Source: a bacterium (GTDB lineage Bacteria; Myxococcota_A; Bradymonadia; UBA7976; UBA1532). Taken from it: a stretch of 36,991 bases of DNA. Within the stretch, counting starts at the first letter, position 1. Each line of letters begins with the position of its first letter. The notes under the pieces were generated by a model. It saw only the letters and a program-made list of their open reading frames with translations. It ran no database searches and was not told where the DNA came from. The stretch spans positions 1-36,991 of the forward strand of contig JAUHXL010000016.1 of assembly GCA_030426945.1 (NCBI GenBank). The letters are read 5' to 3'. Positions 12,035-26,772 of this stretch are shown one piece after another. Made by a program: the position numbers and the translations under genes.

Positions 12035-12220
12035 CGGCGCGCGGACGCCGCCGTCAAGCGGTTCGATCGTGCGGTGAGGATCGCGGAGGTCGGTCGGGAC
12101 GATCACGTCTCGCCTGCGCGGGCTGCTCCCGCAGGCCGCGGGCCAGAAAACGACCGCCGCCGCGCAACAACGGCCGCCGCTGTCCGATGGATCTCCCCCG
12201 CTTCACCCCGGAGGAGACCC

Positions 12221-13315
12221 ATGCCCGCGCCCGACACCACCCCCGCGCGGCCCCACCGCGCCCGCAAGCGCAGCCCGCGCCACCGCTGCATGCTGCCCGG
12301 CCACTGGATCCACGTCAGCAGCCGAACGGTCCACGGCCGCTACGCGTTCGTGCCGCCCCAGGACGAGGGCGAGCTGCGGCGCCTGATGTGGGGCGTCGTC
12401 GGCCGCGCACAGACGCGCTATCAGGTCGACATCGCGTACGGCGTCGTCACGAGCAACCATTTCCACTTCATCCTGCGCGCCGAGCGCCCCGGCGCGATCA
12501 GCACGTTCATGCAGTACGTGAAGGCCGGCTTCGCGCGGCTGACCCACAAGACCTACGAGACGTCGGGCCCGGTCTGGGACGGCCGCTTCCGGTCGAGCAC
12601 GATCCTCGACGCGGAGGCCGAGGTCTGGTGGCTGCGCTACTGCATGGCTCACATGACGAAAGAGGCGATCGTTCCCCGCCCGAACATGTGGCCCGGCTTG
12701 CAGTGCGTCGACCACCTGCTCGAGGGCACCCAGCCCGAGGGCCTCTGCTTCGACGCCGTCGCTTGGATGATGGCGAAGTGCCCGAAGGACAAGCGCCCCT
12801 TCTTCCGCAAGGTGAAGGTGCGCATCCACCGCCTGACCGGCTGGGAGCAGGAGCCGCTGCACGCCTACCAGGCATTCTGCCGGCAGATGTTCGACGACAT
12901 CGTCGCCGAGCACGCCGAGCGCCAGTTCTTCGGCCTCGACGCGGCGCTCGCCCTCCCACACTTCTTCGTGCCGAGCGAGGTGAAGCACAGCCCGTGCGCG
13001 GCGTTCTCGGCGATGGGCCCCCAGTCGAAGGAGCTGCTGAAGGCCGCCTACGAGGCCCGCGGCGAGGGCATCGCCGCCGTGCTCGAGGCCGTCCGCACCG
13101 TCGCGAAGGACGGCCACACCGCCGCCGCCAAAGCGGCAGAGTGCGACCCCGAGTGCCCCTGGCGGCTGCTCCCCGAGGGCTTCGACTGGCCCCCGCTGAT
13201 CAACGACGCCCTCGACGATCCGCCCATCGTCGGCCCCTTCCTGCCCCCCGACGCCGAGCTGCCGTTCTGGCCAAAGAGCTGGGGCCCACCACCCCGCGTC
13301 ATCGGCGACGGATAG
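12221..13315 (+). CDS. RAYT/IS200-like HUH (Y1) transposase
   Basis: GHWIHVSSRTVHGRYAF...YGVVTSNHFHFILRAERPGAISTFMQYVKAGFARLTHKTY...VWDGRFRSS; HFHF HUH motif and downstream Tyr. ATG preceded by GAGGAG. Confidence 0.85.
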   Translation: MPAPDTTPARPHRARKRSPRHRCMLPGHWIHVSSRTVHGRYAFVPPQDEGELRRLMWGVVGRAQTRYQVDIAYGVVTSNHFHFILRAERPGAISTFMQYVKAGFARLTHKTYETSGPVWDGRFRSSTILDAEAEVWWLRYCMAHMTKEAIVPRPNMWPGLQCVDHLLEGTQPEGLCFDAVAWMMAKCPKDKRPFFRKVKVRIHRLTGWEQEPLHAYQAFCRQMFDDIVAEHAERQFFGLDAALALPHFFVPSEVKHSPCAAFSAMGPQSKELLKAAYEARGEGIAAVLEAVRTVAKDGHTAAAKAAECDPECPWRLLPEGFDWPPLINDALDDPPIVGPFLPPDAELPFWPKSWGPPPRVIGDG

Positions 13316-17860: not shown

Positions 17861-20632
17861 CTACTCCACCCGCTCCACCCAAACCGGCGCCGTCCACGCC
17901 ATCACGTCCGTATCCTTCTGCCAAACCTCGAGGTAGAAAAACCACCCCCCCACCGCCGGCACGTCCAACGCCACGCCCTGCCAATCCCCCCCCGGCACCC
18001 CATCGAACGTCGCCACCGCCTCCACCGCCTTGCCCCCAACCTCCCCCCGCCACACCGTCACCACCCAATCCCCCGGCGCGTCCGGATCCACCAACCGAAA
18101 CACCCCCGTCGCCCGCGCCCCACGCACGCCGAGCCGCCCGCCCATCGGCACCCGGTCGCCGGCGTAGAACGCGATCTCCAGGTTCGGATCCTCCGTCGCG
18201 TACGCCCGCGCCTCCCGCACCGCCCCCAGCAGCGCCTCCTCCGTCAACGCCTCCGCCTGCACCGCCGTCCGCGTCGTGTGCCCGTAGCCCCAGTTCGCCC
18301 GGTGGTTGTCGTGATTCGCGGCAGGCGCGAGCCGGAAGCCGTGCAGCAGGTAGTGGTCCCAGTCGCTGTGCGTCTTCACGAAGCGCGACACCTCGCCGGT
18401 CTCGGGGTCGACCGACAGGCTCGGGTTCACCGGCGTGTGGCCGCCCAGCTCCGTCCCCCGCGCGACGGTGACCTCCATCAGGCGCGCCGTGTCGGCCGTC
18501 GCCGCGGCGACGTTGCGCAGCGTCGCGCTCACCAGCGCTTCGTCGGGCATCGCGGTGCCGGCGATCCAGTCCTCGAGCACGTCGCGCAGGGGCGCGTAGT
18601 CGTCGAGGCCGTAGTCGTTGAACTTCTTCTTCGCCTCGCTGGCCTTGGGCAGGTCACTCAGCCGCACGCCGAAGATCTGGTCCCAGCTCCCGTTCAGGAA
18701 CTCCTCGTTGTGCCGGAAGGTGCGCGGGTGGTTGAACATGACCAGGGGGCGCTCGCCCTCGGCGCGGCGGTCCTTCACGAACTCGTCGTACAGGCGGTCG
18801 AAGGCGCCGGTGTCGACCTTGGCCAGCGTGCGGGTGCCCATCACGTTGACGTGGTTGCCGGCGCTGTTGGTGCTCCACTCCATCGCCGGGATGGCGACGA
18901 AGGCGCCGTTGGCGGCCAGGGTGGCGGCTTCGGCGGCGCCGACGATCTCGGCGTAGGCGTCGGGGGTCATGTTGGCTTCGGCGTTGGGGTCGTCGGCGCC
19001 GGTGACGTGGGGGCTGAGGGCCATGAAGTCCATGCCGCTGGCTTGGGCGACGCCGAAGGCGAAGCGGGCGGCCTTGGCGGGGGTCTCGCCGACCTCGACG
19101 TGCTCGGGGTTGCCGTGGTCGTCGAGCACCTCGGGGTGGCCGTCGTCGAGGGCGCCGCCGCCGGCGTGGATGTGGGCGTGCAGGTTGCCGAAGTAGGTCT
19201 TGGTGCGGGCGGCGTCCTGCTGGGCGGCGGTGAGGCCGGCGTCGAGGCTGTCGGCGGTGAGGCTCCACTGCCACAGGCGCGCGTAGAGGTCGACGAAGGG
19301 CTCGACGGCGGCGGGATCGTCGTAGCGGACGTAGTTCTCGTAGTTGTTGAAGAACGCGCTGCCCGACCAGTTGCCCGAGCCGTTGACCAGCACGCGGTCG
19401 TCGACGATGACCAGCTTGTGGTGCATCAGCTGGTAGGCCTCGGCGTTGGTCTGCTTGTAGCGAATCTGGCCGCCGGCGGCGACGATGCGGTCGACGTAGC
19501 GGCCGCGCAGCTCGTCGCGATCCTCGGCGTTGATGACGATGCGCACCGACACGCCGCGCTCGGCGGCCTGGGCCAGGCGCTTCTGCAGTGTGTCGAACAC
19601 CAGGTGGTGCATCAGGACGTCGACGCGGGTGGTGGCCTCGGCCAGGGCGTCCTCGATGAGATCGATGGCGCCGCCGCCGGGCGTGAAGCCCACGAGGCCG
19701 TCGACCGAGCAGGCGCTGGCGTCGTCGGGGCGGTCGGCCCACATGGCCTCGAAGTGGCACGCGAAGCCGGCGCGCAGGGGGTCGGCCTTGTCGGCGTGCA
19801 CGACGACGGCGCTCTCTTCGTTGATCGAGGTGCCCGTCGACGACCAGTTGTTGCTGCCGGTGAGCAGGGTGGTGTCGTCCACCAGCAGGAACTTGGCGTG
19901 CTGCAGGCCGGCGTAGCTGCCGTTGTTCTTGCCGCGGACGAAGCGCACGGCCAGGCCGGCGTCGCGCAGGCGGCGGGCGACGCTGCCGTCGCGATCCTGG
20001 CCGCCGTCGATGGCGACGCGCACCTTCACGCCGCGGGCGTGGGCGCGCTGCAGGGCGTCTTCGATGGCCTTCACGCTGAAGGTGAACTGCGCGGCGTCGA
20101 CGGTCTCGCGCGCGCCGTCGATCAGCTCGACCACGCGGCGGGTCATCGGCGAGCGCGCCACCAGTACGGCCTTGTCGTCGGCGTCGCAGACGTCGCAGTA
20201 GGGCGCGGTGAGCACGACCTCGTAGCGCTGGGCGCCGCGGCACTGGCTGCCGGCGGCGTCGACGAGCTGGCGCAGGGCGGCGGGGCCCACCCAGGGCACG
20301 TCGTCGACGGCCTGCAGGTCGCGGAAGCGGCGATCGTCGCCGGTGCCCACCACGCCGTCGGGGCCGGCGCGGAAGGTGACCAGGTTCTGCGCGGCGCGGC
20401 TGTGGACGCCGTCGGCCCTCAGGCCCTCGGCGTCGAGGTCGAGCCGGTTGACCCGCGCCAGCACGTTGGCCTGCGTGCAGCGGTCCAGGCCCAGGCCGTC
20501 GGCCTTGCCGTCGGGGCTGAAGGGGTCGTCGGCGCCGTCCGTGGCGGGGGCGTCGTCGGCGGGGCCGTCGCAGCCGGCGGGCAGCAGGGCCAGCAGGGCG
20601 AGCAGCGAGAGCAGTCGGGTGAGTACGCGCAT
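17861..20632 (-). CDS. Lipoprotein with HhH-like segment, tandem phospholipase D (HKD) motifs and C-terminal PHP/CehA-McbA-like metallohydrolase domain
   Basis: Signal/lipobox LALLPAGC; DLQAVDDVPWVGPAALRQLVDAA (HhH-like); HAKFLLVDDTTLLTGSNNWS and HHKLVIVDDRVLVNGSGNWS; then TYFGNLHAHIHAGGG...LSPHVTG...FNHPRT...NHDNHRANWGYG. Confidence 0.85.
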   Translation of the reverse strand: MRVLTRLLSLLALLALLPAGCDGPADDAPATDGADDPFSPDGKADGLGLDRCTQANVLARVNRLDLDAEGLRADGVHSRAAQNLVTFRAGPDGVVGTGDDRRFRDLQAVDDVPWVGPAALRQLVDAAGSQCRGAQRYEVVLTAPYCDVCDADDKAVLVARSPMTRRVVELIDGARETVDAAQFTFSVKAIEDALQRAHARGVKVRVAIDGGQDRDGSVARRLRDAGLAVRFVRGKNNGSYAGLQHAKFLLVDDTTLLTGSNNWSSTGTSINEESAVVVHADKADPLRAGFACHFEAMWADRPDDASACSVDGLVGFTPGGGAIDLIEDALAEATTRVDVLMHHLVFDTLQKRLAQAAERGVSVRIVINAEDRDELRGRYVDRIVAAGGQIRYKQTNAEAYQLMHHKLVIVDDRVLVNGSGNWSGSAFFNNYENYVRYDDPAAVEPFVDLYARLWQWSLTADSLDAGLTAAQQDAARTKTYFGNLHAHIHAGGGALDDGHPEVLDDHGNPEHVEVGETPAKAARFAFGVAQASGMDFMALSPHVTGADDPNAEANMTPDAYAEIVGAAEAATLAANGAFVAIPAMEWSTNSAGNHVNVMGTRTLAKVDTGAFDRLYDEFVKDRRAEGERPLVMFNHPRTFRHNEEFLNGSWDQIFGVRLSDLPKASEAKKKFNDYGLDDYAPLRDVLEDWIAGTAMPDEALVSATLRNVAAATADTARLMEVTVARGTELGGHTPVNPSLSVDPETGEVSRFVKTHSDWDHYLLHGFRLAPAANHDNHRANWGYGHTTRTAVQAEALTEEALLGAVREARAYATEDPNLEIAFYAGDRVPMGGRLGVRGARATGVFRLVDPDAPGDWVVTVWRGEVGGKAVEAVATFDGVPGGDWQGVALDVPAVGGWFFYLEVWQKDTDVMAWTAPVWVERVE

Positions 20633-25364: not shown

Positions 25365-26642
25365 TCAGCGCAGGCAGCGGCCGCCGCGCTTCGACTTCTT
25401 GCCCTTCTTCTTGGACTTGCCGCGGTCGTGGCTCCAGTCCGGGCGGCCCCGATCGTCGTCGTCCCGGCCGCCGCGATCCTCGTCCGCGTCGTCGTCGCGG
25501 TCGTCGTCGTCGTCGCGGTCGTCGTCGTCGTCCTCGTCGTCGTCGTCCTCGTCGAGGCCGCCGTGATCGTCGTCGTCGTCGTCGCTGCCGATGCCGTTGT
25601 CGCCGTCGTCGCCGCCGGGGCCACACAGCGCGCCGCCGTCCTTGCTGGCGCCCTCGAGCACCTCGAAGTCGCCGGCCATGTCGCCGGGGCCGATCTCGAC
25701 CGAGCAGCTCGTGTGCAGCGAGCCGTGGTAGGCGTAACCGGCCAGCAGGTGGATCTTCGGGCCCATCATCCGGTGGTTGTGGCGGCCGTCGAAGCTGAAG
25801 GCCTCGCCGGGCTCGACCCGGCCCGAGAACAACGTGCGGCCCCAGTGATCCAGCACGCGGACGTCGGCGCCGTGCTCACCCTGCCAGGCCAGCGTGAGGT
25901 CGGTGACGCCGCCCTCGCACGCGCCGCAGTCCTCGGGGGGCGGCGCGCACACGCCGCCGTCGTCGGCGAGGTGGTTGCAGTCGTTGTCGAGGCCGTCGCA
26001 CAGCTCGGCGGCGCCGAAGTAGACGGCCGCCTCGCCGTCGTCGCAGTCGCCGCCGCAGCTGGTCTGGCCGTCGCCGTCGCGGTCGTAGCCCTCGTCGATG
26101 TTGCCGTCGCAGTTGTCGTCGAAGCCGTTGCAGTACTCGGCGTTGCCCGGCCGGATCAGGACGTTGTCGTCGTCGCAGTCGCCCTTGCAGGTGGTCCAGC
26201 CGTCGCCGTCCTGGTCGAAGCCCTCGTCGATGCTCCAATCGCAGTCGTTGTCGACCTCGTCGCAGATCTCGGCGGCGCCGGTGTAGACGCTGGGATCGGT
26301 GTCGTCGCAGTCGCCGGCGCACCAGGTCTGGCCGTCGCCGTCGGCGTCGTAGCCCTCGTCGATCTTGCCGTCGCAGTTGTCGTCGAAGCCGTTGCAGTAC
26401 TCGTCGTTGCCGGGGCGGGCGAAGACGTTGTCGTCGTCGCAGTCGGGGGCGCGGCCGTCGTCGCCGGGGTCGCCGGGGGCGCAGGTGTCGTAGCCGTCCT
26501 CGTCGAGGTCGACGCACGTCACCGGGTCGAGGAGGGGGTTCCCGCCCTGATCGCCGCCGCCGATCTGATTCTGGGCGAGGGCCGCGCCGGCGGCCGAGGC
26601 CAGGCCGGCGGCGATGAGGGCCATGAGGAAGCGTCCGCGCAT
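25365..26642 (-). CDS. MopE-like putative metal-binding repeat protein with Asp-rich, Lys-terminated tail
   Basis: Signal peptide MRGRFLMALIAAGLASAAGAALAQ (start ATG 26642); repeats of DCDDxNxxxxPGxxExCNGFDDNCDGxIDEGYDxDGDGxTxC; tail DDDDDDHGGLDEDDDDEDDDDDRDDDDD...KSKKKGKKSKRGGRCLR. Confidence 0.88.
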   Translation of the reverse strand: MRGRFLMALIAAGLASAAGAALAQNQIGGGDQGGNPLLDPVTCVDLDEDGYDTCAPGDPGDDGRAPDCDDDNVFARPGNDEYCNGFDDNCDGKIDEGYDADGDGQTWCAGDCDDTDPSVYTGAAEICDEVDNDCDWSIDEGFDQDGDGWTTCKGDCDDDNVLIRPGNAEYCNGFDDNCDGNIDEGYDRDGDGQTSCGGDCDDGEAAVYFGAAELCDGLDNDCNHLADDGGVCAPPPEDCGACEGGVTDLTLAWQGEHGADVRVLDHWGRTLFSGRVEPGEAFSFDGRHNHRMMGPKIHLLAGYAYHGSLHTSCSVEIGPGDMAGDFEVLEGASKDGGALCGPGGDDGDNGIGSDDDDDDHGGLDEDDDDEDDDDDRDDDDDRDDDADEDRGGRDDDDRGRPDWSHDRGKSKKKGKKSKRGGRCLR

Positions 26643-26772
26643 GTCGCTGCTCCTGGTCGGTGGTGGGGGCACCAACGACCATAGCGGGCCACATGACGAA
26701 AGCAAGTTTTAGAAGAAAAAGAAGATGAAGGTGGAGGGGTGGATGCGGCGGCGAGCGTGCGCGGACCTGCCA

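Follow-up and report, generated by a model that had tools for sequence, protein, structure and literature searches.

Does one gene really place two hydrolases of different chemistry on a single lipid-anchored chain, and, if it does, what might the two parts do together? The gene in question lies on the reverse strand of the window (the whole stretch of DNA analyzed, 36,991 nucleotides), at positions 17861 to 20632, where an open reading frame (ORF) with an ATG start encodes 923 amino acids. Its features are the following.

17861-20632, reverse strand: whole gene, a 923-residue lipoprotein with tandem phospholipase D (PLD) repeats and a CehA/McbA metallohydrolase (ORF, Pfam/NCBIfam matches, ortholog alignment, codon GC)
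20570-20632, reverse strand: predicted signal peptide with lipobox, residues 1 to 21, LLPAGC, likely lipid-bearing Cys21, Asp at +2 (sequence; more canonical ortholog lipoboxes)
20498-20509, reverse strand: GKAD motif, residues 42 to 45, in the post-lipobox linker; common to other Myxococcota lipoproteins (sequence comparison)
20228-20479, reverse strand: HhH (HHH_3)-like segment, residues 52 to 135, found only in orthologs G000, G008, and G237 and in separate ~590-residue tandem-PLD lipoproteins (alignment, Pfam)
20186-20203, reverse strand: invariant PxCDxC motif, residues 144 to 149, where the conserved core begins (ortholog alignment)
19736-20140, reverse strand: PLD repeat 1, residues about 165 to 299 (PLDc_2)
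19847-19900, reverse strand: active-site motif 1, H245-x-K247-x4-D252-x6-G259-S-N-N262, with E273 downstream (invariant in 14 orthologs; NucT signature)
19268-19669, reverse strand: PLD repeat 2, residues about 322 to 455 (PLDc_2)
19370-19423, reverse strand: active-site motif 2, H404-x-K406-x4-D411-x6-G418-S-G-N421, with E432 downstream (invariant in 14 orthologs)
17864-19195, reverse strand: CehA/McbA-type PHP metallohydrolase with a C-terminal beta-sandwich-like segment, residues 480 to 923 (NF038032, ligand columns, profile-profile matches)

The GC content by codon position (0.73/0.47/0.97) is typical for a coding frame of GC-rich DNA and thus identifies this frame as the coding strand; by the same measure, a 986-residue plus-strand ORF over the same stretch is its antisense mirror. 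Between the window gene and its nearest ortholog, synonymous codons differ at 157 of 597 identical residues. The ORF and all the motifs quoted in a sequence-only reading of this DNA were recovered as stated: HAKFLLVDD with GSNNWS, HHKLVIVDD with GSGNWS, LHAHIHAGGG, SPHVTG, NHPRT, HDNHRANWGYG, and DVPWVGPAALRQL. Since PLDc_2 matches the protein twice, NF038032 matches it as well, and the catalytic residues are invariant in 14 orthologs, these motifs are not chance occurrences. That reading's central claim is borne out: a single lipoprotein chain combines tandem HKD/PLD motifs with a distinct metallohydrolase of the PHP/CehA-like kind.

The PLD half resembles nucleases of the NucT/Nuc kind

The two PLDc_2 matches (E=1.1e-44, 152 bits against a gathering score of 27) correspond to repeats that both fit HxK(x)4D(x)6GSxN exactly, and the motif residues together with E273 and E432 are invariant in 14/14 orthologs. 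This pattern is the signature given for the NucT/Nuc/Zucchini nucleases (PMC5714352). In line with it, the top NCBIfam PLD match is nuclease NucT (1.2e-26), with cardiolipin synthase models far weaker, and the best PDB matches are MitoPLD/Zucchini, NucT, and Nuc. The NucT equivalog cut-off is missed (93.4 versus 297 bits), so the window protein is a NucT relative rather than NucT itself. Signature and relatives together thus give good support, at the level of sequence, to reading this half as a nuclease. Where the earlier reading had left nucleic acid and phospholipid side by side as possible substrates, the repeats match the NucT/Nuc signature better than cardiolipin synthase, which makes nucleic acid the likelier substrate and phospholipid the less likely one.

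The window protein shares with NucT, Nuc, and MitoPLD (Zucchini) both the signature and the downstream Glu and, with NucT, an extracytoplasmic location, here predicted from the signal sequence. In contrast to these enzymes, which carry one HKD motif per chain and form dimers, it holds two repeats in one chain, which presumably replace the NucT homodimer, and it differs further in its predicted lipid anchor and its fusion to a metallohydrolase. Four cysteines in this half, C146 and C149 (of CDxC), C292, and C308, are invariant in all orthologs and probably form disulfides or a small metal site; together with the signal sequence, they fit an extracytoplasmic protein.

The C-terminal half is a divergent CehA/McbA-type metallohydrolase

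The C-terminal half had been read as a PHP/CehA-like fold, with a missing match set beforehand as the observation that would count against it. A match was found: NF038032 CehA_McbA (NCBIfam) matches the window protein at 1.5e-20 and 14/14 orthologous C-terminal domains at E<0.01 (best, 5.8e-23). The curated cut-off of 80 bits is narrowly missed, at 73.9 bits for the whole window protein and 77.3 for its isolated domain, which marks the protein as a divergent member. These direct matches are dominated by the final ~150 residues of the domain, and its N-terminal half alone matched NF038032 weakly (0.0024, in 1/3 orthologs). Profile-profile comparison covered both parts: the N-terminal half matched stand-alone Myxococcota relatives at an hhalign probability of 99.2% (score of 117, where 40 column shuffles reached no more than 19), and the C-terminal half gave 99.3%. 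Among the stand-alone relatives, one (L098) exceeds the CehA/McbA cut-off and another (L101) falls slightly short of it, both with matches that span the full length. The CehA-like domain had no credible match in a profile search of the PDB, and an AlphaFold2 model from few input sequences had a pLDDT of 42.7 for the whole protein and 41.7 for the C-terminal domain, with active sites not discernible.

All eight putative metal ligands—H485, H487, H542, E585, H594, H635, D775, and H777—are invariant in the 14 orthologs. We take their ligand roles from analogy with PHP structures. Nearly all of the putative ligand residues are also present in annotated CehA/McbA proteins in the alignment, and H774 is a subtype-specific addition to the set. 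Mutagenesis of CehA has pointed to four important histidines, including the HxH pair His313/His315 (PMC8292978), a pattern consistent with H485/H487, H635, and H777 of the window protein. The likeness to CehA/McbA proteins thus extends over a co-linear series of HxH, xxH, E, H, NHP, and DxH and the C-terminal segment, whereas the window protein departs from them in its fusion to PLD, in an insertion of about 130 residues between NHP and HDNH that is found in the fused subtype, and in two marks of its own: SPH replaces T/S-D/E-H, and HDNH replaces SDxH.

A further point of comparison is Sb-PDE from Sphingobium sp. TCM1, a secreted PHP enzyme and proven zinc phosphodiesterase (PMC5460133). Sb-PDE is like the window protein in having a signal peptide and in being a PHP enzyme directed out of the cytoplasm, and its Zn-dependent action on phosphate diesters would be shared by the window protein on the reading proposed below; it differs in its length of 441 residues and in that PHP is the only domain reported for it.

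The fusion appears to be inherited as a unit and represents a new domain architecture

Of the 379 Myxococcota genomes sampled, 17, from five families (f1, f3, f7, f14, and f32), carry the fusion; 14 copies are complete, at 48 to 65% identity to the window protein, and three are cut by contig ends. In a profile search of the sampled Myxococcota with the metallohydrolase domain, this subtype was found only in the fused protein, apart from a stop-containing C-terminal fragment in G111 and a piece located on a second contig of G194; all other matches, none stronger than 2.5e-19, were to distant CehA/McbA proteins that stand alone. Wherever support is strong, trees of the PLD half and of the metallohydrolase half show the same clades; the fusion thus behaves like a single unit of inheritance. 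In the relatives examined, the two parts are always joined, and each is old and intact. An assembly chimera or artifact was also considered, and is ruled out by the agreeing trees and by the 14 complete orthologs in independent genomes.

Searches outside these genomes gave little. Phage records held no match to the 923-residue protein, viral contigs held no relative of it, and no plasmid record covered most of it, the full query matching in the PLD region only; the C-terminal half had one distant plasmid match, a PLD-free CehA/McbA protein on a Hymenobacter plasmid. A scan of genome contigs with exact peptides of one sequence returned two loci, both assigned to Myxococcota by title or kinship, a design that leaves room for occurrences in other phyla. 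Within the window protein's own genome (~76% complete), the PLD pair was not found a second time.

The PLD and CehA/McbA parts are of known kinds, and their combination is a new domain architecture. That the architecture is unusual had been proposed from the sequence, on the understanding that a common family already bearing a name would speak against it. No such family emerged: no Pfam or NCBIfam model covers the whole PLD plus CehA/McbA arrangement, and the accessible part of the literature on phospholipase D and PHP domain fusions describes no such fusion.

Lipidation, linker, and HhH-like segment

The window lipobox, LPAGC after a hydrophobic stretch, is imperfect, with P at -3. The orthologs carry the more canonical forms LSAC, LAAC, IGAC, and LGAC, which makes lipidation of the window protein likely, at Cys21 as judged from the sequence. 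With regard to the surface anchoring suggested in the sequence-only reading, which would call for placement in the outer leaflet, the residue at +2 varies among orthologs (D, E, G, S, V).

A set of ~590-residue lipoproteins found across Myxococcota (L028-L037, L040), not named as a family in NCBIfam, has a GKAD linker, an HhH-like head, and a NucT-like tandem PLD without the metallohydrolase. These proteins share the lipobox, the linker motif, the HhH-like segment, and the tandem PLD with the window protein, to which they are roughly 31 to 44% identical over the N-terminal third; they differ in lacking the metallohydrolase domain and in being present in more genomes than the fusion. The HhH-like segment, which is their standard head, was part of the sequence-only reading and holds up here as a real but weakly scoring likeness outside the conserved core, seen in only three orthologs. 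Pfam HHH_3 matched the segment of the G237 ortholog at E=4.5e-4 (20.7 bits, curated cut-off of 27) and L037 at E 0.05, both weak matches; the window segment had no Pfam match, and a PDB profile search with the segment found nothing. HHH_3 is known from ComEA and other competence proteins that bind DNA.

The GKAD motif lies ~20 residues past the lipid-bearing Cys in the window protein and many orthologs, in a linker that is otherwise unconserved. GKAD or a variant (GKGD, GKED, GKTD) occurs roughly 10 to 35 residues past this Cys in many Myxococcota lipoproteins (besides the ~590-residue proteins, L116, L123, L134, L149, L151, and L153), several of them apparently unrelated. In a small sample from two genomes, GKAD[G/E/D] codings were lipoprotein linkers in 7/30 cases, versus 2/30 for the permuted control DAKG. 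The motif might serve to direct sorting or processing.

A proposed two-step phosphoester-degrading enzyme and its alternatives

We propose, with about even confidence, that the protein is a bifunctional enzyme, anchored in the envelope outside the cytoplasm, that degrades phosphoesters: a PLD nuclease would act first and PHP hydrolysis of its products would follow, for scavenging of phosphate and nucleosides. The two PLD repeats of the chain would come together in a single phosphodiesterase site that needs no metal, where, as in Nuc/NucT, one His would attack phosphorus and the other protonate the leaving group, cutting DNA and/or RNA to fragments. The resulting phosphate mono- or diesters would then be hydrolyzed at a di- or trinuclear metal center in the PHP domain of CehA/McbA type, and the organism would take up phosphate and nucleosides liberated outside the cytoplasm; in some lineages, the HhH-like segment might help to hold the nucleic acid. 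We infer the substrate, the two-step order, the location, and the physiology, and the order in particular from the obligate fusion in the sampled genomes. Phosphate-ester chemistry of the C-terminal half draws support from the PHP superfamily and from Sb-PDE (PMC5460133). We count against the nucleic-acid model the absence of the HhH-like segment from most orthologs, the unconserved neighbors, and the breadth of the PLD superfamily. This superfamily also includes lipases and transferases.

That breadth, together with anchoring at the membrane, leads to an unlikely but serious alternative, a degrader of phospholipid or envelope polymer, in which the PLD half would strip the phospholipids of the cell's own or prey membranes of their head groups or cut phosphodiester-linked glycopolymers and the metallohydrolase would dephosphorylate the product. 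CehA/McbA genes elsewhere can indeed adjoin a gene for a phosphatidylinositol (PI)-specific phospholipase C1-like protein, as in Hymenobacter; however, the motif signature and the best relatives of the PLD half are those of nucleases, and the cardiolipin synthase models score weakly. A doubt of similar weight, which we likewise hold to be unlikely, concerns the other half. CehA and McbA are themselves carbamate-ester hydrolases, so phosphorus chemistry does not follow automatically for the C-terminal part: it could be a carboxyl- or carbamate-ester hydrolase or another non-phosphorus hydrolase, two unrelated degradative activities then having been joined. NF038032 is named after carbaryl hydrolases, and several stand-alone CehA/McbA genes adjoin TonB/SusD and glycoside hydrolase genes, suggesting non-nucleotide substrates. 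Yet the kinship to CehA is distant (73.9 bits against the cut-off of 80), the subtype has its own motifs (SPH, not TDH; HDNH, not SDxH), and PHP enzymes generally act on phosphate esters.

Two further readings keep the nucleic acid and change the purpose. NucT is periplasmic and membrane associated and has been linked to transformation as well as to purine salvage (PMC5714352), and the HhH-like segment resembles HHH_3, so a periplasmic NucT/ComEA-like role in DNA processing during natural transformation, rather than in nutrition, might be considered; we regard it as improbable, given that no competence genes were recognized nearby, that most orthologs lack the segment, and that the distribution among the sampled Myxococcota is patchy. 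Least probable of all is an anti-phage or predatory effector, which would destroy nucleic acid of phage, prey, or other foreign origin at the envelope. PLD nucleases are known in defense systems, and there is weak similarity to DISARM DrmC (89.9 bits versus a cut-off of 133), but the gene stands alone outside any defense neighborhood, and the fusion is kept as a unit and not spread on plasmids or phages.

The preferred reading of a two-step phosphoester-degrading enzyme can be sharpened, more tentatively, into an unnamed Myxococcota enzyme family in which one lipid-anchored chain would combine metal-free PLD endonucleolysis with subsequent metal-dependent PHP end hydrolysis of the same polymer. 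If true, this would be a one-chain extracellular machine from nucleic acid to phosphate, and it would supply a defined enzyme for a possible use of nucleic acid as food by Myxococcota of soil and water. Few CehA/McbA proteins have a known reaction chemistry, and the family takes its name from pesticide hydrolases; that at least this branch acts on phosphate esters is hinted at directly by its obligate fusion to a PLD of the nuclease type, which also makes such a role testable in one protein.

Gene neighborhood

The upstream neighbor of the gene encodes an ATPase_2/DUF234 protein and the downstream one, on the same strand, a WYL/WCX regulator, across gaps of 142 and 167 bases. A comparison of the window with 16 other loci revealed no conserved neighbors besides the gene itself, and no nucleotide-uptake genes or phosphate regulon were obvious near it or near its orthologs. 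Elsewhere in the window, there are a gene for an IS200-like (Y1_Tnp) transposase (12074-13312, plus strand) and one whose product has four MopE-type putative metal-binding repeats and a DUF7467 match (25368-26705, minus strand).

Two other loci are worth recording. About 2 kb upstream of the G073 ortholog, a gene (L052:4980-6986, plus strand) encodes a second tandem-PLD lipoprotein, whose C-terminal stretch looks lamin-tail-type. In Hymenobacter volaticus (L096:859-3403), a CehA/McbA gene follows genes for a PI-specific phospholipase C1-like protein and SusD, which is another pairing of a phosphodiesterase with CehA/McbA, here as adjacent genes.
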